Part shown: positions 6,426-42,888 of the stretch, piece by piece
Position numbering within the stretch: the first letter of the stretch is position 1
Layout: every line of letters begins with the position of its first letter
NCBI GenBank assembly: GCA_947489315.1
Contig: CANLCX010000001.1
Span: 189,501-253,500 of the forward strand
Direction of reading: 5' to 3'
DNA: 64,000 nt
From: an uncultured Sphingomonadaceae bacterium
Lineage (GTDB): Bacteria > Pseudomonadota > Alphaproteobacteria > Sphingomonadales > Sphingomonadaceae
Made by a program: the position numbers and the translations under genes
Notes under the pieces: generated by a model
The model's input: only the letters and a program-made list of their open reading frames with translations
Database searches by the model: none
What the model was told of the DNA's origin: nothing

Positions 6426-6510
6426 TATGTCCGCTTTCGGGATGAAGCAATCACTCGGCTAATGTCTGCTATGGGCGCAAAAACCTGCGTTAGAGCCCAA
6501 CCACCCAATT
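6426..6510 (+). repeat. Dispersed palindromic element copy 2 (degenerate, two half-copies)
   Basis: TATGTCCGCTTTCGGGATGAAGC... and CTAATGTCTGCTATGGGCGCAAAAACCTGCGTTA resemble the element consensus. Confidence 0.6.
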
Positions 6511-9873: not shown

Positions 9874-11091
9874 ATGAGTAAAAAGAAATACTTATACATA
9901 GTGGGAGGATTTCTAGGGATTTTGGGGCTTTCAACCGCACTGGCAAGCACCGGGTGCGAAGACCCACAGGGTAATTCCGCCAGTTTTGAAAGCGTAACAA
10001 TCGCTCCGGATTTGCTACCTTTTTCCGAAGGATTGACATTTACACAAGTCAAAAAAGAAGACGGCTCGATCGCGACGCTTTTGGTCGTAGAATATGATGG
10101 CGAGGATGTGCGCGCAATTGATGTGGCCTCACTTGGTTCCTCTGGTGGTGAGGACATATTCGATGCGATATCGGAATTGGAATGGTCCGATCTGCAATCA
10201 GCGACGGCACGTACCGATCTGCAAAACCTCTATCAGATGGAACAGCTGTTGCCAGCGGCTGGGTCGGGCAATCGCCATGTGGCTACAGGAACAAACTTTC
10301 CCGAACATGCCAGCGAAACCACAAGTACTTCCGTCTTCAACTTCCCCAAGTTCGGGCTGGCAACTCCACCTCGGACTAGCATCCGATATGATCCCGATAT
10401 ACTCCTCGACTATGAAGTTGAAATATGCAGTCGCTTTGATCGAAACATAGGCTCGGTCGAAGACTTCGATACCGCAAGAAAGGGGTTTTTCCTTTGCGGT
10501 GACTTTACTGATCGAGCAACCCTGATGCGTCTGATCGACACGAGCAATTTCGATTCCGGCAACGGGTTTAGCGACGCGAAAAGTGGGATCGGTTTCTATC
10601 CCAGTGGGCCTTTTCTGGTAGTTCCCAATGACTGGCGCGCGTTTGTCAAAGATGAACGGATGACGACATTTGTAAATGGCGAGCCCAGGCAGGATGCACG
10701 CGGTGGCGAGATGATGTTGGATTTTCGCCAGATTTCTGAAAAAATATTGAAAGATACCAAACAGCGTTTCCTCTATAGGGATGAACGCCACACATTAATG
10801 CCCAAGAATTTCCTGGAAGCAGGCATGAGCTTGATGTCGGGTACATCAGAGGGCGTAATTTTTACACCGCCCACACGCTGCGACATTGCCGCCGGTGTTC
10901 GTAGCAATATTTCTAGCGGCGATCTGTTCAGGGGTCGTCCGGTTTTTGAGTCAGTAGTAGAAACCTTCATCGAGCGCGAAATGCAATCCGGGCATTTTCT
11001 CCAGGCAGGTGATGTTGTTGATTATGAATCGAGCACCATGGGAACGATCAAAATCATAGTTACCCAGCCTGGTACATCCGATGCACCATAA
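9874..11091 (+). CDS. Exported fumarylacetoacetate hydrolase (FAH) family protein
   Basis: N-terminal signal/TM; FAH-like DPDILLDYEVEICSRFDR, GKGFFLCGDFTDRA-like region, GFYPSGPFLVVPNDW, VNGEPRQD, SLMSGTSEGVIFTPP, GDVVDYESSTMGTI. Confidence 0.65.
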   Translation: MSKKKYLYIVGGFLGILGLSTALASTGCEDPQGNSASFESVTIAPDLLPFSEGLTFTQVKKEDGSIATLLVVEYDGEDVRAIDVASLGSSGGEDIFDAISELEWSDLQSATARTDLQNLYQMEQLLPAAGSGNRHVATGTNFPEHASETTSTSVFNFPKFGLATPPRTSIRYDPDILLDYEVEICSRFDRNIGSVEDFDTARKGFFLCGDFTDRATLMRLIDTSNFDSGNGFSDAKSGIGFYPSGPFLVVPNDWRAFVKDERMTTFVNGEPRQDARGGEMMLDFRQISEKILKDTKQRFLYRDERHTLMPKNFLEAGMSLMSGTSEGVIFTPPTRCDIAAGVRSNISSGDLFRGRPVFESVVETFIEREMQSGHFLQAGDVVDYESSTMGTIKIIVTQPGTSDAP

Positions 11092-11462: not shown

Positions 11463-11491
11463 GCGTCCGCTTTGGGCGCAAAAGCGGACAT
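11463..11491 (+). repeat. Dispersed palindromic element copy 3
   Basis: GTCCGCTTT gggcgca AAAGCGGAC, perfect 9-bp stem (11465-11473/11481-11489). Confidence 0.85.
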
Positions 11492-11566
11492 TGATGTGGT
11501 TTGATCTGAACAAGTGCAACGCAGCCCGCCCCGCAATTTAACTCACGGGTTGCAACGCCCATAGAA

Positions 11567-11582
11567 TGGTGTGATCACACCA
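11567..11582. promoter_or_regulatory. 16-bp perfect palindrome TGGTGTGATCACACCA
   Basis: Exact palindrome in intergenic DNA 3' of the NarL-type regulator gene. Confidence 0.5.
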
Positions 11583-11719
11583 GTTTATTGAAAAACAATG
11601 CACTGTAGAGTGCATCCCTTCTGATTTGGCTGCAGGAGACAGAAAGTGAGAATATCAAAACGGATATTTCAGGCGGCATTTGCAGGGCCATCGCGATGAT
11701 TATACTGATTTGCCCGAAA

Positions 11720-12406
11720 TTATTCCAAGTCAACAGTGCGCTCGGAGGTTCCAGTCCGGGTGTGATCGACAATTTCCAACAGCCCGTCACGCGCAGCCAA
11801 TGTCATGAGTTCGGCGAGTGAGTGCACATCCAATTTTTGCATCAGGCTGGTGCGATGATTGTTGACCGTGTTTATGCTGATCCCAAGGCGGGCAGCCAGG
11901 GCTCCGTTGCTGCTGCCCTGGATCAAACCGATAAATATCTGACGTTCCCGCCTGGTCAAGCTGTCATGAATGGAAGGTTCATCCAATACAGCTTTCACAC
12001 TCTTCGAAACCCGCCTTTCGCCATTGGCGATATCACAGAGAAGCTGGGGCCATCGATCAATTTCATCCCCCTTCAGAAGAAGACCATGAGCGCCGCTGGC
12101 CATGGCACATTTCATTATGGTCGGGTTTTGCAAGCCGGTCATAAGGACGATTTTTGTGTCCGGGCACCAGCGGCAGATCTCTTCAACCACCTCGAGCCCC
12201 GTAATGACCGGCATGGCAATATCGACAATCAGAATATCCGGACGGTGTTGTTTGGTTGCTGCAATGGATTTGAGACCGTCCTCGGCATCGGCAAGGATGA
12301 TAAAGCGACCATCACGTTCCAGCACGCCCCGCAGCCCCGCGCGCACAATCGCATGATCATCTCCGAGGACGATCCGCAATGGATTTTGCGAGTGAATAGT
12401 GTTCAT
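11720..12406 (-). CDS. NarL/FixJ-type response regulator (REC + LuxR HTH)
   Basis: IVLGDDHAIVRAGLRGVLE, DILIVDIAMPVITGLEV, C-terminal LTRRERQIFIGLIQGSSNGALAARLGISINTVNNHRTSLMQKL. Confidence 0.92.
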   Translation of the reverse strand: MNTIHSQNPLRIVLGDDHAIVRAGLRGVLERDGRFIILADAEDGLKSIAATKQHRPDILIVDIAMPVITGLEVVEEICRWCPDTKIVLMTGLQNPTIMKCAMASGAHGLLLKGDEIDRWPQLLCDIANGERRVSKSVKAVLDEPSIHDSLTRRERQIFIGLIQGSSNGALAARLGISINTVNNHRTSLMQKLDVHSLAELMTLAARDGLLEIVDHTRTGTSERTVDLE

Positions 12407-12467
12407 TGTCCCCCAACCACGTTTTTTCCAGCGGCTTGTCAGCAATACCCAGATCGGCGTGCATAAT

Positions 12468-14438
12468 ATGAACAGCGTGCCCGATATTATCAACCAACTT
12501 GTGCCGCACGTCCAAAACCGGCCATTTGGCCGGCTGAGACTGCCGCTGCTGGTCCTGTTTTCCTTCCTTGTTTTGGCAATGATGAGTGATCAAGCAAAAG
12601 CGAATCAGGGAGTGATTAATCTCGCAAATCTTTCCACAATCGAAGATATTCAGATGATTGCAAAACCGGTTTTGCGGAAGCAAACCGGCCAGCTCGAATT
12701 TGTCCGATATAGCTTGCAACTTGAAAACAGCGGAGACCAACCTCTCCTTTTCAGGATAGTGACCGAGGAAGCTGCACGGGCGGAAGTGCTGATAAGCCTC
12801 GTTGATGAAGGCCAGACAGAGATTCTTCTCCAATCCCGCCAACGGTTCAAAGATGCAGAAACGTTTAGTAGTCAAAACCTTCAATTGGCATCTCGACCGG
12901 TCGTTATCACCAAAAGCGGATCGGTCCGGCTTGATATTGATATCTATGTTGCCCTCAACGATAAGGCCTTTCCGATCAGTCTGGTTTCCGAAGATCAATA
13001 TATCGCTAAACGCCAATTGGTTACCGCAGTTCATGGCCTGTATTTCGGTTCAACCTTATTTGCAGTCGTGTTGGCCACTGGCTTTGCGCTGTTGATGCGG
13101 TCGCATGTCATCGCCCTATTTTCGTTTTACACTTTCACGCTGATCTTGCTGAATATTCATACCTATGGTTATGCAACACCCTATCTGCCAGAATTTTTCT
13201 CTATCCATCATGACGGAATAAAGCGCTTTTTGCGGCTTTCATGGTGCGTTTTCTATTTCTTCTTTGCGACCAGTTTTACCAACGCCTCTCACAATGCTCC
13301 GCGCATGTTTCGGGTTGCCCTATTTGTAGTTGGAGCAACGGTCATAAACTCCCTAATTGGTTCGGTGTTTCATCTGCCGATCACGACAATCATAATGATT
13401 GTGACCGGTACCGGATTCTTGGCTATTACCGGCTATTTTGTGTGGACAGCGCTTCGTGAAAAAGTCAAAGGCGCGGGTTTATTCGCATTCGGCTTTTGTA
13501 TCTTGCTTGCTTACATCATGCTCACAATACGCGCCGGGTTTCCGGATGTAGCCAGCTTTAATGATCAGTTCGACACCGCCGCTCTTTTTCTTCTGGTGCT
13601 GGATTGCCTGGTCTTCAGTGCTGCGATTATCAGCCAGGTGCGCGGCATCATTCAGGAACGGGACGCATCAAAAGAGCAACAGCTTGCGGCTGCCATGCAA
13701 AGCAGTGAGATCGCTAATCGGCTGGCACAAGCGCATGTTGATCGCAATGTCGCCCTTGCAGAGATTAGTCGCGCGCGGCGCAATTTGTCCGAAACGCGGC
13801 ATGATTTACGTCAACCGCTTGTTTCGTTGCAGAGCGCACTATCTGGCGTTGACCCCAAAAACCGGGAACTTCACCGGGCACTGGAATGGAGTATCGACTA
13901 TATAGATCAGTTGCTTTCAGCAACAACGCTGGACGAGGAAGGCGCTGTGACAACGCTCAAGCGGAAAACCGAGGATGTTCACAGTCGCAAGGAGACTGCG
14001 CTGAGTGAGCATTTATTGACGCTGGAACAGATGTTTGCTGAAGAGGCTCTGAATAATGGTTGCACCCTCAAAATTGGCAAAAGTGATCTTGTTCTGGCGG
14101 TACCGTCGGTTGCAATTCACAGAATTTTGTCCAATCTCATCGACAATTCGATCAAACATTCTGGCGCAACTTGCATCGGTGTGGAAGCCGGACTGCACGA
14201 TGGGCAAGCCTGGATAGAAGTGACCGATAATGGTTCGGGATTACCGCCAGAGATCATAGCAAAATTTGCCGATATGTACAGCGAAAGGGATCGCGATCAG
14301 AATCAGGGACCTCATGGATTGGGCCTTGGAATTGCGCGTTCGATTTCCACCGGTGAAGGCCTCAAACTCGAACTTTGCCCGACAGAATCCGGGACATGTT
14401 GGAGGTTATCCGATATTCCCCTTTCGAAACCCCGATGA
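12468..14438 (+). CDS. Sensor histidine kinase with 7TMR-DISM-type sensory region
   Basis: DISM extracellular beta-sandwich-like N-term, seven hydrophobic segments, LSETRHDLRQPLVSLQ H-box, NLIDNSIKHS and DNGSGLPPE ATPase motifs; divergent from the response regulator. Confidence 0.85.
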   Translation: MNSVPDIINQLVPHVQNRPFGRLRLPLLVLFSFLVLAMMSDQAKANQGVINLANLSTIEDIQMIAKPVLRKQTGQLEFVRYSLQLENSGDQPLLFRIVTEEAARAEVLISLVDEGQTEILLQSRQRFKDAETFSSQNLQLASRPVVITKSGSVRLDIDIYVALNDKAFPISLVSEDQYIAKRQLVTAVHGLYFGSTLFAVVLATGFALLMRSHVIALFSFYTFTLILLNIHTYGYATPYLPEFFSIHHDGIKRFLRLSWCVFYFFFATSFTNASHNAPRMFRVALFVVGATVINSLIGSVFHLPITTIIMIVTGTGFLAITGYFVWTALREKVKGAGLFAFGFCILLAYIMLTIRAGFPDVASFNDQFDTAALFLLVLDCLVFSAAIISQVRGIIQERDASKEQQLAAAMQSSEIANRLAQAHVDRNVALAEISRARRNLSETRHDLRQPLVSLQSALSGVDPKNRELHRALEWSIDYIDQLLSATTLDEEGAVTTLKRKTEDVHSRKETALSEHLLTLEQMFAEEALNNGCTLKIGKSDLVLAVPSVAIHRILSNLIDNSIKHSGATCIGVEAGLHDGQAWIEVTDNGSGLPPEIIAKFADMYSERDRDQNQGPHGLGLGIARSISTGEGLKLELCPTESGTCWRLSDIPLSKPR

Positions 14439-14568
14439 TCGCCCACGACATTTAAAACTGGCTCAGTTTGTCTGATATAGTGGGAATCAATATTATTCTC
14501 GCAAGCGGACAGCCGCCCTTCCCCGCTATCGACCATCATTTATCTTGCCGATTGCTGGTTGCTACCAA

Positions 14569-14587
14569 ATGGTGTGATTGCACTATT
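14569..14587 (+). promoter_or_regulatory. GTG-N6-CACTAT dyad motif, copy A
   Basis: ATGGTGTGATTGCACTATT, 57 bp upstream of the 14644 start. Confidence 0.4.
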
Positions 14588-14643
14588 CCGCAGCGGTCGG
14601 ACTGATCCTAGAACCAGCGGCACATCAATTCAGGAGACCCGAT

Positions 14644-15321
14644 ATGCGACCGCAAACCTTGCTGTTACTTGCCGCCACGAGTTTGACCCTTTCCGCCTGT
14701 CTCGGCGGCAGCGGGCCGGTTAAAAGCAATCTCTCGCAATTTCACACACTGGATTCCGTTCCGGCTTCCGCCACTTTTTCGGTAGTCTCTTGGCGGCCGG
14801 AACTAGACAGGTCGCTCGAGTTTCGCAGCTATGCGCAGCGTTTGACTGCGATCATGCGGGAAGCCGGACTAAGGGTTGTCGCACCTGGTCAACCGGCAGA
14901 CTATATCGCCTATCTCGATTATGGCATCGATGATGGCCGTCCTGTCACATATACTTATAACGTGCCGCAATGGGGCGTGACCTATAACGCCCAAACAACT
15001 TCAACCGTAGTGGATGATACCAATCCTGGGCAACAGGTCATCAACAGCACGGTGCGGGGCGCGGATCCGACATATGGGGTTACCGGATACCAACAGGAAG
15101 TACGGAACAGGACCGTCTATGCCCGGTTTGTGCATATCGATATCCTCCCAAAGAACGCAAACGCCCAATCCACTCCGGTATATGAGTTGCGTTTGAAAAG
15201 CAGCGGATCGTGCGGCAGCATTCCATCATTGATGCCGCGTTTCATGCGGGCCATCGAGAAACGGTTTGACCGCAAGTCCGGATATTCGGGCAAGGTCAAA
15301 ACCGGCGGTGTGGACTGCTGA
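14644..15321 (+). CDS. DUF4136-family lipoprotein
   Basis: LTLSACLGG lipobox; FHTLDSVPASATFSVVS...RLTAIMREAGLRVVAPGQPADYIAYLDYG. Confidence 0.8.
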   Translation: MRPQTLLLLAATSLTLSACLGGSGPVKSNLSQFHTLDSVPASATFSVVSWRPELDRSLEFRSYAQRLTAIMREAGLRVVAPGQPADYIAYLDYGIDDGRPVTYTYNVPQWGVTYNAQTTSTVVDDTNPGQQVINSTVRGADPTYGVTGYQQEVRNRTVYARFVHIDILPKNANAQSTPVYELRLKSSGSCGSIPSLMPRFMRAIEKRFDRKSGYSGKVKTGGVDC

Positions 15322-15424
15322 ACATCTGGCCGATGAACTCTGGCAGATAGCAGGCACAAGCCTCTGAATGGCCGTGATTTGTTGAAAATCCAATGAACTT
15401 CACATGAACGGTTTTATGCCGAAA

Positions 15425-15442
15425 ATAGTGTGAGTCCACTAT
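15425..15442 (+). promoter_or_regulatory. GTG-N6-CACTAT dyad motif, copy B
   Basis: ATAGTG tgagtc CACTAT, perfect 6-bp inverted repeat 60 bp upstream of the 15502 start. Confidence 0.45.
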
Positions 15443-15501
15443 GGGCTTCCAGGACATTTTTCCACATGATTGCTCGATCGCTAGACACGGGGAGAAAGAC
15501 C

Positions 15502-16566
15502 ATGAAAAAGATCAGACTGCATTCCGGATTGTCGCTTGCAACAATGGCATTGGCGGCGACCACCATTGCGGGAGCGCAGCCGGCGCTGGCACAGTCCAAA
15601 GATTTCCATTCCTTCTTCCCAAAGAACAGCAGCGAAGCCCGGGAGTTGGAACAGCGCGGCAATCAGACGCGAGACCAGAGACGAAATGCTCGGCGGACTG
15701 CCGATCCCGATTTCAATGACCCGGATTATCGCCGGCATGTCGGCGACCTCGCGGCCAATAGCGACCTGCAGGCGCTCGAACAGCGCGGTTATGACGCCCG
15801 GCGGGCACGGCCAGGACAGCAGATACGCGATGAATATGACTTAACACCGAAGGAGCGCCGGGATTTGCAGCAGCGTGGTCGGCAGGCGCAAATCACCCGC
15901 GGACAGCGTAACGGTTTTCGTCCTATGGCGACGGGAACAACCGCTGGCACTCGGCAATATCAACCTCGAGCGGGATATCGCAACAACGGATATCCGGGCG
16001 CTGGTAGAGCGCCGGTCCGCGGCCAGGGTGCGCGCAATATGAGCAGGACTAGCCGTATAAAAAGTACCGCAAGGACGGGCTTCACCGGGACATCCCTTTC
16101 GAACAAGGTTTCGGCGGTTGATCTGGGCACGGAAGCATTTGGAGGTCGGAGTACCGGAATCGGTGAATATGGTATCGATATGACTTTCGGCCAGGCGCAA
16201 ACCTTTGCGAACGGGAATGATCCCGTCATTGCTGCAGGCCGGGCGACACAACGATTTGGTCAGAATCTTTATGGCGCCGCAAACGGTGTTGGCGAGTCCA
16301 TCCGCGACCCGCGAAGGATTCCGGGAAATGTCGGCCGCGCTGCGACAGGCGTTGCCCGCACGGGTGTCGGCGCTGTCCAATATGTCGGACAAACGGCAAT
16401 CAAGACCACACGGGACGGGGCCCGGTTCATGACCGACCCCAAATATGCCACCAAGCAGGTAAACTATGGCGCGAAACAAGTCGGAAAAACTGTGAATAAT
16501 ATCAGCAAATCGACTTGCAAAGGTTTTTCCACGCTCCTCGGGCTCAACAAGAAGAAGTGTAGGTAG
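15502..16566 (+). CDS. Exported basic hypothetical protein with L(E/Q)QRG repeats
   Basis: Signal peptide MKKIRLHSGLSLATMALAATTIAGAQPALAQ; repeats ARELEQRGNQTR, LQALEQRGYDAR, RRDLQQRGRQAQ. Confidence 0.7.
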   Translation: MKKIRLHSGLSLATMALAATTIAGAQPALAQSKDFHSFFPKNSSEARELEQRGNQTRDQRRNARRTADPDFNDPDYRRHVGDLAANSDLQALEQRGYDARRARPGQQIRDEYDLTPKERRDLQQRGRQAQITRGQRNGFRPMATGTTAGTRQYQPRAGYRNNGYPGAGRAPVRGQGARNMSRTSRIKSTARTGFTGTSLSNKVSAVDLGTEAFGGRSTGIGEYGIDMTFGQAQTFANGNDPVIAAGRATQRFGQNLYGAANGVGESIRDPRRIPGNVGRAATGVARTGVGAVQYVGQTAIKTTRDGARFMTDPKYATKQVNYGAKQVGKTVNNISKSTCKGFSTLLGLNKKKCR

Positions 16567-16599
16567 GAACTCCGATCCTGACCAATTCATCCAGGGAGA

Positions 16600-16965
16600 A
16601 TGTACATGACCGTCATTTCGAAATTGGTTTCCGCGGCTGCCTGTCTGATCGCACCCATGACAGCATCGTTCTGGAGTGCACCGGCACAAGCCAGTGGAAC
16701 TACTCCTCAGTACCGCGCCTATTGCGAAAACAAATACCGAACCGGGGTCTTGAAAGGGGTCAAGCCGCGATGGAGTTATGGCTATAATCGTAGCACAAAG
16801 CGGATGGAGTGCCGGGAAGCGGACTCAATGGGGCTCAATACATCGGTAAAAGGCCGAACTTTCTGGATCAACTTGAATGACCTGTGTCAATTCACGACAG
16901 GCCAGTCGGATTTTCACTGGCATGGAGAAGGTCGTGTTGCCTGCGGCCGGAATGATCACAAATGA
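16600..16965 (+). CDS. Small exported Cys-containing protein (YRTGxLxG family, single domain)
   Basis: Signal peptide; YCENKYRTGVLKGVKPRWSYGYNRSTKRMECREAD...FHWHGEGRVACGRND; paralogous to N-terminal domain of next gene. Confidence 0.7.
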   Translation: MYMTVISKLVSAAACLIAPMTASFWSAPAQASGTTPQYRAYCENKYRTGVLKGVKPRWSYGYNRSTKRMECREADSMGLNTSVKGRTFWINLNDLCQFTTGQSDFHWHGEGRVACGRNDHK

Positions 16966-17774
16966 TGAGCGCATTAACCCGCCAGACCGCGCTGGGTACG
17001 TTGATGTTTTCCGTATGCCTTGCAATGTCGGGAATTCTGCTTCCTGAACCCGTCAAAGCCGGTGGATCATCGATCAATCTGTCGAAATTCTGTGACGGCA
17101 GATATCGTACCGGTCTGCTGCGAGGCTTGCAGGGCAAAATTCGCGCAAAGTGGAACCCCAAACGTAAGAAATGGGGCTGCTACATTCCCCAGAAAATCGG
17201 CTATGGCATTGTCACTCCGGCTGGTTTCAAGCCTCTTGGCTATGCCGAAGCCTGTCGAAAGATGCGCGGGACTTCGCTGTACCATGTTCATGGCCGGACG
17301 TTGCACTGCGGGCGGGACAATGCACAGCGCAAACAGCCGCCCCGCCAGCCGCAGCCCGCTCCGCCATCGACGGGGAACGGAAGAGGTGAAGCCCAGTATA
17401 CTGCGCTCAGCATGTGCAATCGATCGCGTACCGATACCATCTACGCTGCGTGGGTATGGCACGACTGGGGTGAACGGAAGCGTCCGAAAAACTGGCGTGC
17501 CCAAGGCTGGATCAGATTGGCGCGCGGACAGTGCGAACGGATAGAGTTTCCGCACTATCGTAACGGTGATCCTTATGACGATACGGTATATCTGCACGCC
17601 ACTTCGGACAGCATTAACTGGGGAAAAGGCGACTACGCCTTCTGTCTGCACCCGTCTGACTTTGATCATCTAGGTGCCGACAAAATGGCATGCACAGGTC
17701 GGGATCAGTGGCTTGCAGAGACGTTTGAGTTCCAGTTAAATCCCGGCGCCGAGAATAGGTTCAATTTCAACTAG
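16962..17774 (+). CDS. Exported two-domain protein: YRTGxLxG domain + DUF1036-like C-terminal domain
   Basis: FCDGRYRTGLLRGLQGKIRAKWNPKRKKWGC...YHVHGRTLHCGRDN then YTALSMCNRSRTDTIYAAWVWHDWG...WRAQGWIRLARGQCERIEF...YLHATSD. Confidence 0.7.
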   Translation: MMSALTRQTALGTLMFSVCLAMSGILLPEPVKAGGSSINLSKFCDGRYRTGLLRGLQGKIRAKWNPKRKKWGCYIPQKIGYGIVTPAGFKPLGYAEACRKMRGTSLYHVHGRTLHCGRDNAQRKQPPRQPQPAPPSTGNGRGEAQYTALSMCNRSRTDTIYAAWVWHDWGERKRPKNWRAQGWIRLARGQCERIEFPHYRNGDPYDDTVYLHATSDSINWGKGDYAFCLHPSDFDHLGADKMACTGRDQWLAETFEFQLNPGAENRFNFN

Positions 17775-17820
17775 CCGCTGATAGTGCCAGTGTTCAGACC
17801 AAAGTTTTACGAGGTGTAAC

Positions 17821-18858
17821 ATGCCTATATTTGCAAGAAAATTGGGTGCAATTATCAGTGCCGCTTTCCTGTTCGCATCGGTTCCGATATCGGCCCAACG
17901 CCTTCCGACTACGGAAAATGGCTTCTACATGATGCGCACGAATGCAGACGACCTTTCCGACTATCGGTCGGTAGACAGCATGTGTATCGGTGAGAATCAC
18001 GATGCGCTGATCGCCTTCAAAAGTACCGGTGATGGCACGGTTGACTTTTTTGATCTGAAACAGGGTGAAAAGGTTGTTCCAGCCAAATTGAAATTGAGCG
18101 AACCGGATGCCGGGGTCAGCCAGATACGTCACAAGCTGATTGAACCGGGAAGCGATGAGGTTGTTTTGGAACTGCATTTCATAAATCCTGGCGCATTGGG
18201 CAATTCAACCAAAATACCCATGGCGACGCTATCCCACGTCAATGTAGGGCAGATGAACTTCACAAATCTCGACTGCATGATGGGCAAGCATATATTATAC
18301 GCCGGTATCGATCAGGACCACAGAGTAACGGTGATGGCCGACGCAGAAGGTAATCTTTCTTTTCTGCTGAGCTCGATAAAAGAACCCGGAGTGGCGATGA
18401 ATTTGACCGGCGGGTTCTGGTCCTCTGGCAAGCGGGAAGAAATCATCTTTACCTTTATTGAAGGTAGCGCGGTGACAAGCATCAAGGCTGCGCCTCACCA
18501 GCGCATTGAATATCCGGCATGGCGAACCGCCAACCCGGACGGGCGTCAATATTCGGCAAGCCCTAATGGGTTTTTCGTAGCCGATATGGCAAAGCTGGGC
18601 AGCAAGTCGAACCGATTGCCCTATGGGCTCGCCCTGCATTTTGAACGGCTTGAAATTTGCCGTCATCTTGCTGGTGAAACCAGCGGTAACCCGGAGCGCG
18701 ACAAGCAGGTTGCTGAAAGTTGGTACAATGCAAGATGCGATGAAGCCAAGGCACAGCATGCGGGATATGTTAAACAGTTTGCGGACAACAAGGCGGTTTC
18801 CGAGATACTGAAAACGCATGGAGCAGATTTCTTGGACCGTGGTCACGGGCAACAGTAA
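17821..18858 (+). CDS. Exported hypothetical protein
   Basis: Signal peptide MPIFARKLGAIISAAFLFASVPISAQ; no recognised domain; same strand and tight spacing. Confidence 0.65.
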   Translation: MPIFARKLGAIISAAFLFASVPISAQRLPTTENGFYMMRTNADDLSDYRSVDSMCIGENHDALIAFKSTGDGTVDFFDLKQGEKVVPAKLKLSEPDAGVSQIRHKLIEPGSDEVVLELHFINPGALGNSTKIPMATLSHVNVGQMNFTNLDCMMGKHILYAGIDQDHRVTVMADAEGNLSFLLSSIKEPGVAMNLTGGFWSSGKREEIIFTFIEGSAVTSIKAAPHQRIEYPAWRTANPDGRQYSASPNGFFVADMAKLGSKSNRLPYGLALHFERLEICRHLAGETSGNPERDKQVAESWYNARCDEAKAQHAGYVKQFADNKAVSEILKTHGADFLDRGHGQQ

Positions 18859-18871
18859 CGGGGAAAAGCAA

Positions 18872-19891
18872 ATGGGCTACAAAAGCTATGCCGCCGGGGG
18901 GCTCGTTGCAGCGGTGCTGCTCACTATTTCTGTCCTTATGCCGACGGCAGTATCGGACAACCGGGCGCATGCGTCACCCGCCATTCCCGCTATGTTGCTT
19001 CAAACCTTGGATGAAGCCGAAAACCAATGCCGCATCGCACAGGAAAGCTGCATGATCAATTCGGACCGTTGCAAAGCCAATTATGATAACGCCGTCAGGC
19101 GACAAAATCAGTGCAAAGCCCAGCAGGATAAGCAATATCGAGCGTGTTACGACAGGGTATATCAAACGGTGCGGCCCAGCATTAGTACAAATCGTCAGCG
19201 GGTAGTGGAATGGAAGAATCAACAGGCTAAACATCAATGCCAATATCTAAAAGATACAAGCCAAAGTTGCCCGAGACCGAGAGATGACTGCTATTCTCGC
19301 GGCTATTGCATTCAGCAATATCAGCGTTGTTCATCCAATGCTTTCCTGCAGGACCAATCAAACAATCCGCCATCAGCTCGTCCGCGCAATGAGCGCCAGC
19401 CAGAACGGAGCGTTCGCCAAACCCCTCCGCCCCGCTCAGAACCTAAAAGGCCTGCCCATCCGTCCACAGTATTGAAACGGGCAAAATTGCGCGCAAGCCC
19501 TGCATTTTTCGAAGTCCGACTTACCAATCCATGCACGCACCCGGTTCGGGCTGCCTACGCCTATAATTGGGGCTCGAAAAATAGGGATTATGTATTATGG
19601 GGCTGGGAAACTATTCCGGCGCGCGGTGATACCATCGTCAAATTGCCAAAAAAAATGCACAATTTTTATGCCTATTTTGATCAAGCTAAGCTGGACCGGC
19701 GGCAACAAACCAAAAAATTATTATATATTAATCATGACTCGGATTTTCGGGCGGGCCTCAATCTTGATAATCGCCCAGCGAAGCCGAATGTTACGGAGGC
19801 GCAATATACTTATATAACGGGCAGAGGTTGGTTGCTCCGACAAAATTACAAAAAATATAATTCAGCGTCCATTACGGGCTGTGGGAGTTAA
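18872..19891 (+). CDS. Exported Cys/Gln-rich protein with DUF1036-like C-terminal region
   Basis: MGYKSYAAGGLVAAVLLTISVLM signal; CRIAQESCMINSDRCKANYDNAVRRQNQCKAQQ; C-term FFEVRLTNPCTHPVRAAYAYNWG...VLWGWETIPARGDTIVKL...YAYFD. Confidence 0.65.
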   Translation: MGYKSYAAGGLVAAVLLTISVLMPTAVSDNRAHASPAIPAMLLQTLDEAENQCRIAQESCMINSDRCKANYDNAVRRQNQCKAQQDKQYRACYDRVYQTVRPSISTNRQRVVEWKNQQAKHQCQYLKDTSQSCPRPRDDCYSRGYCIQQYQRCSSNAFLQDQSNNPPSARPRNERQPERSVRQTPPPRSEPKRPAHPSTVLKRAKLRASPAFFEVRLTNPCTHPVRAAYAYNWGSKNRDYVLWGWETIPARGDTIVKLPKKMHNFYAYFDQAKLDRRQQTKKLLYINHDSDFRAGLNLDNRPAKPNVTEAQYTYITGRGWLLRQNYKKYNSASITGCGS

Positions 19892-19896
19892 AGGGT

Positions 19897-20304
19897 GTGA
19901 ACATGATGCCGCGCTTCAATCCCGTTAGCCCCTTGGCTCTTGTGGTGACAACCGCGAGTCTGAGCTTGTTGCCGGCCCAATCCCAAAACAGTCATCGGAT
20001 CGTGTTCCAGACGGACCGGACAGCAGTTACCTACCATTGCGAAAATGACATGACGCTCAATATCACTTTCATGGCCATAGAAAATTTGCCGCTGATCAAG
20101 CTGACCCATCCGTCCAAGCGATCCGGCAAAAGCTGGCGTAATCTGCTGCTTCCGCAATCTCAAAGCGGAAGCGGAGTGCGTTATGCGACAGACTTTACCA
20201 GCGTGCATATGCAAAATGACGCGCTTGTGCTGACCTCAAGGGAGTCCGCGATGACAGATGAAATTTCACCGGTACGCTGCGCAAAAACGGCCATTGGCGT
20301 TTAA
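19897..20304 (+). CDS. Small exported hypothetical protein
   Basis: Signal-like N-terminus MMPRFNPVSPLALVVTTASLSLLPAQSQ; last gene of the secreted cluster. Confidence 0.6.
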   Translation: MNMMPRFNPVSPLALVVTTASLSLLPAQSQNSHRIVFQTDRTAVTYHCENDMTLNITFMAIENLPLIKLTHPSKRSGKSWRNLLLPQSQSGSGVRYATDFTSVHMQNDALVLTSRESAMTDEISPVRCAKTAIGV

Positions 20305-20363
20305 TATTTTAACGCTGTCGAACAAGCTAGGGCGAAATCTGAAGGGGCAGCATCCTATGCTGT

Positions 20364-20795
20364 TCAAATCGGCCATCTGCGATGACGCACCAGCCAGAAT
20401 GCGCCGCCGGCTGCAGCACCAATTGGGCCAAGCGTAACATAATCCTCCAGGGCACGCATCGCTGTTATCTGGTCGCCGCGGAACAGGACGGGGATGCCAG
20501 CAGAAGCTCCGGCAAGGAGGAAAAACCATAGCCCGGTGATGTTGCGGATTTCTGAAACAACTATCGCAACCAGAGCAACGGGGGCAGCAAAAATCCCTGC
20601 CATGGCAGCGAATACAGGCAGATAGCCCAACTGGTTCGCGAAATCCTCGATCGAAGTCACGCCTTCCATGAGTGGCTGACCAACCGTCATGAGACCAGCG
20701 ATCAAAAATATTCCGAGCGCGGCGGCGAGGCTGGCGGCGATATAGGCGATTAGAATGCGGATAAGTGCCTTCACGCTTGTCATGATGACGACCAA
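20364..20795 (-). CDS. Hypothetical membrane protein
   Basis: Four hydrophobic segments; no recognised family. Confidence 0.55.
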   Translation of the reverse strand: MVVIMTSVKALIRILIAYIAASLAAALGIFLIAGLMTVGQPLMEGVTSIEDFANQLGYLPVFAAMAGIFAAPVALVAIVVSEIRNITGLWFFLLAGASAGIPVLFRGDQITAMRALEDYVTLGPIGAAAGGAFWLVRHRRWPI

Positions 20796-20856
20796 AGCAG
20801 GTTCCTCTCTTCAGGGGTTCTTTTGCGACAACATAGCCCGGCCTTGATCAACTGCT

Positions 20857-20875
20857 AATGGTGTAAAGACACTAT
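20857..20875 (+). promoter_or_regulatory. GTG-N6-CACTAT dyad motif, copy C
   Basis: ATGGTGTAAAGACACTATT in the divergent intergenic region. Confidence 0.4.
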
Positions 20876-20989
20876 TATCGGCTAAGACAAGAAGACCGCG
20901 AGCAGTGCACCGCCATCCCAATGCACAAGGTCCGTCAGTCATACGGCCTTACAGATGACCGATATTCGGTCTTGTTTTCGACAATTTCT

Positions 20990-21018
20990 AGCGTCCGCTT
21001 TCGGGATATAGCGGACAA
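20990..21018 (+). repeat. Dispersed palindromic element copy 4
   Basis: agcGTCCGCTttcgggatatAGCGGACaa. Confidence 0.8.
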
Positions 21019-22796: not shown

Positions 22797-23987
22797 CTAT
22801 TCCGCCAGGCTTTCCATCTCATCCAAATCAACAGCCGCAACTGCAGATTTCAAAACGTCGATGGACTCTACCTTGCCCTTGGCTTCAACATTGAAGCGAT
22901 CAGCAAAAACAGTGCTATAACGCCCACGTTTGTTGCTGCTGTCATAGCGTTCGGTGGTTAGTCGCCCATCAACCTTGCCGGTTCTTTCCTCAACCGTACC
23001 GGTTTGTTTTTGGGACTCAATGTTGAGCGCCCCACCGAGAGTCGCAAGCCCAGCGGCCGCGCCCAAGTCAGTCACTTGAAGGGTGATTTGATCCTCGCCC
23101 GTTCCGTAAGTAGCCTCCGCGGATGATCCGCCAATGCCAGCAACGGAAGCACCATTTGTTTCAAAACCAGAACGGGTCAAGCCGCCGGGCAGGCTTGCGG
23201 GCAATAATTCTAACAATTTATCGGGTGCCGTTGGCGGTGTCGCTGCGCCATTCTGCGCCCGCTCGCTGGCGGCCTCCATCTTTTTACCGGCTTCTTCCAG
23301 CTTGCCTAAATCCACAGAGCCAATCCCCGGTACAGAAACAGTTCCGGACATGGCGCCATCATCGCTTATTGCAGATGGCCCGCTGGAAAAGAGGAACATC
23401 AGAGGGGCCATGATTGCGCTCAGGATAAACCCGGCAACAGCGGCGGAAACGACGATAACAATGGTGTAAACAACATTCTTGTCTTCCGGTGCCTTCATCA
23501 ATACCGGCAGGCCGGTATAGAGTAGATAAATGCTATAAAGTCCCAGAATAGATAGCATTCCAAGGCCTGGAACAAGATTGAAAATCGCCGCAACCCAACC
23601 GGCCGTTGCACTATAGGCGGCAAGCTTAAAGGCTTTGTCTCGGTTCGGTGTGGCGTCGAATTTCGGCGCCAAAAAGTCAATCAGCAGTGCCAACAGAAAA
23701 ACAATAACGAGCGTCGCTAGATAGCTGATAATTGCTGTTGAGAGCGCGCTGAAGAAAGACGGGCGGTAGGTGATACCAAAGGCACCATGGCCAAATGCCA
23801 GCGAGTGAATGAATGTTGCAACAGGCCCGATCGCAGCGAGCGGAAGAATGTAGGATTTATAAATATCAGCAATCGATGTTGTTTCACCATCGATAACCGA
23901 CCATTCGTCTTTGGGCTTCAACAATATGCCCTTGACCCGTTCCACCAGGCTATTTGTTCCCTTTAAAGAGTTGTTCTCGTCCACCAT
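22797..23987 (-). CDS. Yip1-family membrane protein
   Basis: SLVERVKGILLKPKDEWSVIDGETTSIADIYKSYILPLAAIGPVATFI, bacterial YIP1 pattern. Confidence 0.8.
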   Translation of the reverse strand: MVDENNSLKGTNSLVERVKGILLKPKDEWSVIDGETTSIADIYKSYILPLAAIGPVATFIHSLAFGHGAFGITYRPSFFSALSTAIISYLATLVIVFLLALLIDFLAPKFDATPNRDKAFKLAAYSATAGWVAAIFNLVPGLGMLSILGLYSIYLLYTGLPVLMKAPEDKNVVYTIVIVVSAAVAGFILSAIMAPLMFLFSSGPSAISDDGAMSGTVSVPGIGSVDLGKLEEAGKKMEAASERAQNGAATPPTAPDKLLELLPASLPGGLTRSGFETNGASVAGIGGSSAEATYGTGEDQITLQVTDLGAAAGLATLGGALNIESQKQTGTVEERTGKVDGRLTTERYDSSNKRGRYSTVFADRFNVEAKGKVESIDVLKSAVAAVDLDEMESLAE

Positions 23988-42855: not shown

Positions 42856-42888
42856 AAGTCCGCTGTATCCCGAAAGCGGACATTAGCT
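42856..42888 (-). repeat. Dispersed palindromic element copy 5 (minus orientation)
   Basis: aaGTCCGCTgtatcccgaaAGCGGACattagc. Confidence 0.8.

Follow-up and report, generated by a model that had tools for sequence, protein, structure and literature searches.

The 64,000-nucleotide stretch analyzed here (contig CANLCX010000001.1 of an uncultured Sphingomonadaceae bacterium, positions 189,501 to 253,500; hereafter the window) contains a block of genes, most of them for exported proteins, that spans about 11,465-21,016 and counts as one unit. The initial annotation had described a run of tightly spaced plus-strand open reading frames (ORFs) with signal-like N-termini at 14560-20310; that run is real, but the unit is wider than first drawn, as a response regulator and a kinase had been left outside the system and F5, on the opposite strand, was not mentioned. 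Working from left to right, the block comprises a LuxR/NarL-type response regulator (11720-12406, minus strand) with Response_reg and GerE/LuxR helix-turn-helix (HTH) domains, a 7TMR-DISM histidine kinase (12468-14438, plus strand), seven plus-strand genes named g0 to g6, and F5, a conserved hydrophobic membrane protein (20364-20795, minus strand). The DUF4136-like lipoprotein g0 (14644-15321) is followed by g1 (15502-16566), a basic exported protein with L(E/Q)QRG repeats; g2 (16600-16965), a small exported protein whose YRTG domain contains cystine; g3 (16962-17774), an exported protein with YRTG and DUF1036 domains; g4 (17821-18858), an exported orphan; g5 (18872-19891), a cysteine-rich exported protein with a modular and highly variable C-terminal domain; and g6 (19897-20304, with an alternative ATG start at 19903), an MliC-like relative of lysozyme inhibitors. 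Successive genes from g1 through g6 are separated by 33, -4, 46, 13, and 5 nt, and g0 from g1 by 180 nt. As judged by reading the sequence, the N-termini of g0 to g6 resemble Sec signals and g0 has the lipobox LSAC. The reading frames of g0 to g6 and F5 are conserved in other genomes, which shows that these are genuine genes.

Distribution and ends of the block

Sequence searches assign the window to the marine bacterial genus Parasphingorhabdus (Sphingorhabdus sp. EL138, P. marina DSM 22363, and uncultured Sphingomonadaceae). The block is patchily distributed, occurring in 8 of 33 Parasphingorhabdus genomes; these keep the core gene order, rather than having the orthologues scattered, and F5 closes the block on the other strand in all eight. 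Two layouts are found: in type-1 blocks (the window and loci L028, L029, and L030), the window's kinase and regulator lie upstream, whereas in type-2 blocks (L031-L034) a different kinase/regulator pair sits between g3 and g4. The block of P. marina DSM 22363 is of type 2. The MliC-like gene is on the minus strand upstream of g0 in six genomes; in the window it is the last gene of the operon, on the plus strand, and L029 does not have it. Genome G012 retains only the regulator and parts of two genes, the final 32 residues of g3 and about 54 of g4, and this remnant is a scar of block loss; in the incomplete genome G022, F5 with its operator lies at a contig end as a block fragment. A pattern-limited scan of 85,488 species found no g3 relative outside the genus, and profiles found no g3 or g5 relative beyond it in about 350 Sphingomonadales genomes; g0 is the only block member found with wider kin. 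A lone g5-like gene, about 33-36% identical, is present in genome G006 (L035, 8720-9928, minus strand), where the rest of the block is absent.

The DNA flanking the block differs between most carriers, and in most comparisons block-to-block homology ends at the block ends, although L031 and L032 additionally share their upstream flank. The L028 and L029 blocks are 98% identical from g0 to F5, but another syntenic stretch of 15 kb from these two genomes is 89% identical, and the DNA surrounding the two blocks is unrelated. A dispersed palindrome, GTCCGCTTTNGGG...GCGGAC, is present at both ends of the window's block: on the left as GTCCGCTTTGGGCGCAAAAGCGGAC (11465-11489), within which the homology of type-1 blocks starts, and on the right as GTCCGCTTTCGGGATATAGCGGAC (20993-21016). 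Its searched form has 15 exact copies in the genome, and the reversed-pattern control none; the homology between L031 and L034 begins no more than 4 nt from a copy. The end copies are degenerate in several relatives, and none is recognizable in L033. Like repetitive extragenic palindrome (REP)-like sequences, the element is short, dispersed, and intergenic, here at the ends of an exchanged block; we did not find it described in the literature. No integrase, transposase, or recombinase is encoded among the block genes. From these comparisons we infer that the block was exchanged by recombination at or near the dispersed palindromes, and our reading is of a probably mobile, self-contained island. 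A phage or plasmid origin was considered and ruled down by the lack of g4 relatives in viral contigs and of g3 or g4 matches in plasmids.

The gene to the right of the block (22797-23987) has unrelated neighbors in other genomes, and so showed no empty block site. On the left, outside the boundary, the block is adjoined by an ORF at 9874-11091; its product has an apparent signal/lipobox and a domain of the fumarylacetoacetate hydrolase type (51 bits). The dispersed palindrome (GTCCGCTTTCGGG) recurs elsewhere in the window, at 6429-6441 and 42869-42881.

A common operator and two kinase/regulator pairs

Upstream of the block transcription units lies an 18-bp palindrome, ATRGTGT-N4-ACACYAT, here termed the operator. 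Five matches with two or fewer mismatches occur in the 64-kb window, all of them within the block, compared with 0-2 (mean, 0.15) in each of 20 shuffled sequences; the match inside g3 is probably due to chance. In the window's genome, the exact form occurs in the block only. Across the 33 genomes of the genus, the eight block genomes have 25 distinct exact sites, none of them outside the block; G022 has one, next to F5, the 24 remaining genomes have two between them, and the reversed pattern was not found at all.

The geometry of these sites is nearly invariant. A -10-like hexamer (TAnnnT or close to it) starts 22 nt past the operator in all five promoter classes, namely those of g0, g1, F5, g4, and the site at 11566. 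In the window, the latter operator (ATGGTGTGATCACACCAG, 11566-11583, plus strand) precedes TAGAGT at 11606-11611 (TACAAT in relatives); the g0 operator (14569-14586) precedes TAGAAC at 14609-14614; that of the g1-g6 operon (15425-15442) precedes CATGAT at 15465-15470; and that of F5 (20858-20875) precedes TATGTT on the minus strand at 20830-20835. The distance is off by one base at the F5 promoters of L028 and L030. A g4 operator is found only where a kinase pair interrupts the operon, that is, in type-2 blocks, and in the G012 scar. Averaged over the five classes, the match to TATAAT is 4.15 of 6 at offset 22 but no more than 2.52 at 44 other offsets, and the maximum mean among 5000 sets of five random positions was 3.60. 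The 22-nt spacing puts the operator center near -43, around the usual position of an activator and, as there is no clear -35 element, this arrangement would fit activation. In relatives, the g0 operator also serves the divergent MliC-like gene: on that side, TAGANT is found at 22 nt in five of the six genomes with the gene, whereas in the two genomes without the gene there the hexamer is degraded to AAGATA and AGGATA. The MliC-like gene is thus probably a member of the regulon in both of its arrangements. The site at 11566 would drive a weakly supported 17-codon ORF or small RNA, read from the sequence at 11646-11699 (plus strand) and convergent to the response regulator; as a peptide it reads VRISKRIFQAAFAGPSR in the window and MRILKRIFQTAFAGPS in relatives.

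That the block forms one regulated unit is well supported by these predicted promoters. It would not be a single transcript, because separate operators, each with a -10 sequence, serve g0, g1, and F5; separate promoters had been named as grounds for rejecting a common system, and several do exist, yet all share one operator.

Within the block, only the response regulator is recognized as a DNA-binding protein; it has a receiver and a GerE HTH domain, and the kinase has HisKA and HATPase domains, as a two-component system should; the HisKA score of the window's kinase is 18.7 bits, below the cut-off of 26.9, with HDLRQP conserved. In domain content, in this phospho-acceptor region, and in the retained receiver Asp, the pair is like other pairs of 7TMR-DISM kinases and LuxR/NarL-type regulators. 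Unlike the usual pairs, it is linked to a mobile block, and two diverged pairs occupy different positions while the operator is unchanged. The type-1 and type-2 kinases are 25-26% identical and the regulators 41-42%, with 53% identity (36/68) in the regulator HTH regions. Close relatives of the window-type kinase sensor (at least 83% identity) occur in no genomes but the four with type-1 blocks, and those of the type-2 kinase (at least 87%) are confined to the four with type-2 blocks. The extracellular domain of the type-2 kinase is 7TMR-DISMED2 (84.9 bits), a domain type held to bind carbohydrates.

The exported proteins and their variation

The most conserved member of the block is g0 (90-97% identity). 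It had been called a DUF4136 lipoprotein, and the lipobox is there, but g0 itself misses the Pfam DUF4136 model (PF13590); its profile finds a protein in L129 (E 8e-14) that in turn matches DUF4136 at 56 bits, and g0 is thus probably DUF4136-like, by way of an intermediate homologue and below direct Pfam detection. Outside the block, the one member of its close subfamily that was seen is a 55% identical homologue in another genus (L146; G330 contig 2, 1-20000). That homologue clusters with an ECF sigma factor, a TPR serine/threonine kinase, a small Gly/Asn-rich peptide, a radical SAM enzyme, a TIR-TPR protein, and a trypsin-like protease, and the cluster looks like a peptide-maturation conflict system.

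The basic repeat protein and the pair of YRTG-domain proteins of the initial annotation were both borne out: g1 has a pI of about 10.9, and the YRTG domain is common to g2 and g3 (hhalign 97.6%, E 3e-12). The window's g1 is without one repeat period of about 96 amino acids that is found in all seven orthologues, which could reflect recombination between repeats or an assembly collapse. Two DUF1036-like C-termini had also been proposed. That of g3 scores 32 bits against a Pfam cut-off of 23 (PF06282) and is the only DUF1036 found in the genome, joined here to the YRTG domain, which has no Pfam family; g5, in contrast, has no Pfam DUF1036 match, and hhalign of g3 against g5 gives 4%. The one paper found to name DUF1036 describes a CLas protein as an interactome hub, reported as essential for L. 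crescens, in a passage that offers no mechanism (PMC10687234). Neither g1 nor g4 matches Pfam or NCBIfam. AlphaFold2 models of g3 and g4 (mean pLDDT 48 and 46) were unusable, and the Foldseek matches that they gave (PUD-1, pilotins, and cytolysin domains, at E 0.008 or worse) were disregarded for that reason.

The C-domains of g5 fall into three classes in the block genomes, 18-30% identical to one another (17-30% for most pairs when the lone L035 copy, nearest to that of L030 at 40%, is included), across blocks in which g3 and g4 are 71-99% identical. The N-terminal parts form two classes, combined independently with the classes of C-domain. At the nucleotide level, identity between the window and L028 is 90-100% over 14650-18650, falls to 79-80% in the first half of g5 and to about 50% in its second half and in g6, and is 82-86% in F5. 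Against L030, the window is 69-81% identical over 15650-17400 and 91-98% over 17400-18650, a mosaic showing that the block has recombined internally. Neither F5 nor g6 follows the class of g5: L028 and L030 have g5 C-domains that are 20% identical, with F5 at 92% and g6 at 93%, and in L028 and L031 the C-domains are 85% identical and g6 72%.

The g6 protein had been listed as an orphan but is instead MliC-like, the L031 orthologue scoring 22.6 bits against a Pfam MliC (PF09864) cut-off of 22, with 21.3 for the window's copy and 20.8 for that of L028. Among Protein Data Bank (PDB) sequences, the family profile finds only E. coli MliC/YdhA (2f09), and that weakly (E 0.78). Residues S89 and K103 of P. 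aeruginosa MliC are needed for inhibition, as also described for Neisseria (PMC6033460). Like the MliC/PliC inhibitors, the g6 family has a conserved cysteine pair, an SGSGxRY-type loop (the Ser region, present in the window's copy), and, in six of seven copies, the Lys. Unlike them, g6 has no lipobox, and the window's copy is only 32-42% identical to its block orthologues. Lysozyme inhibition by g6 is put forward as putative.

Function of the block and its significance

The genes are inherited together, at differing genomic locations, with a common operator and promoter geometry and with modular variation in g5. Our preferred explanation, to which we give a probability of about 0.4, is a mobile, two-component-activated envelope or surface response of a defensive kind. 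The 7TMR-DISM kinase would sense an external signal and phosphorylate the LuxR-type regulator, which would bind ATRGTGT-N4-ACACYAT at about -43 and switch on four or five block promoters together. The products, that is, g0, g1, the cystine-containing g2, g3, and g5, g4, g6, and the membrane protein F5, would go to the periplasm or surface, and the set, once induced, would counter an outside agent attacking the envelope, e.g., lytic enzymes or proteins from hosts, predators, or competitors. In such a response, g6 might block an enzyme of the muramidase type, and g5, through its variable domain, might meet a changing counterpart that differs between places. The defensive role, the most tentative of these steps, is suggested by the likeness of g6 to MliC, the signals for export, the variability of g5, and the mobility of the block. 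It is rather unlikely that all of the more specific elements hold together, namely an inducible recognition-and-protection system in which g5 supplies swappable recognition domains, the inhibitor-like protein disarms the attacker, and a promoter code private to the block is driven by two diverged pairs.

Several observations weigh against a defensive, two-component-activated response. The L029 block is without g6, and the window's g6 has HMQND where six relatives have HIKG, so that the Lys equivalent to K103 is missing. On the regulatory side, the operator was first spotted by eye in the intergenic regions of the window, and its occurrence there is thus not an independent test; the MliC-side hexamer is poor in L034 (two of six matches); no operator was found in the kinase/regulator intergenic region; and, since the two HTHs have diverged while one operator is kept, another protein could bind it. 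The regulon could then be real but governed by a repressor or other factor encoded elsewhere, the two-component pair controlling something else. We consider this quite unlikely, because the exact operator is almost wholly confined to block genomes, because the block encodes no recognized DNA-binding protein besides the response regulator, and because the spacing near -43 suits activation.

Among other functions, a surface coat or adhesion layer is a doubtful but serious candidate: the exported proteins would form a layer or matrix, the kinase would sense carbohydrate, and exposed g5 would vary under selection by phages or grazers. Cysteine-rich basic exported proteins, a repeat protein, and a lipoprotein would suit such a structure, as would the 7TMR-DISMED2 domain of the type-2 kinase and the diversity of g5, but no lectin, pilus, S-layer, or export machinery is recognized, an MliC-like gene is a poor fit, and the low-confidence models give no evidence from folds. 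Interbacterial antagonism, with g5 (for its variable C-terminus) or the basic, glycine-rich g1 as a secreted toxin and g6 or F5 as immunity protein, appears improbable. A variable modular C-terminus on a better conserved N-terminal part, a small membrane protein in the regulon, and a patchy mobile distribution all speak for it; however, F5 and g6 do not co-vary with the g5 C-domain, which speaks against a toxin paired with its own immunity protein, and L029 keeps g5 without g6. Furthermore, no Pfam toxin domain was found and the block has no secretion-system gene. That unrelated exported genes lie together by chance is scarcely credible: most of the genes are without known domains and g6 changes place, but the same block recurs at unrelated loci with its own operator and the 22-nt spacing. 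A known anti-phage defense system was also considered and set aside, there being no PADLOC match at E 0.01.

The initial annotation's central proposal, a single undescribed extracytoplasmic system, survives in its co-inheritance, its order conserved in eight genomes, and its block-specific operator, though with other boundaries and some changed details. No characterized pathway was matched in Pfam, NCBIfam, PHROGs, PADLOC, or PDB sequences, apart from the resemblance of g6 to lysozyme inhibitors, and the open-access literature yielded nothing on the block under DUF1036, Parasphingorhabdus, Sphingorhabdus islands, 7TMR-DISM with lysozyme, or sphingomonad REPs. Accessory islands of exported proteins under two-component control are a known kind; no description was found in that literature of the composition of this one, of its private operator with fixed geometry, or of kinase pairs exchanged while the operator is kept.

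With this analysis, a set of hypothetical exported proteins becomes a defined regulon, with an operator, promoters, candidate regulators, boundaries, and strains in which the block is naturally present or absent, and its function thereby becomes testable by deletion of the regulator and by comparison of carriers with non-carriers. The block also gives a setting for DUF1036 and DUF4136, both families of unknown function, and offers an example of two diverged two-component pairs that apparently drive one set of promoters.

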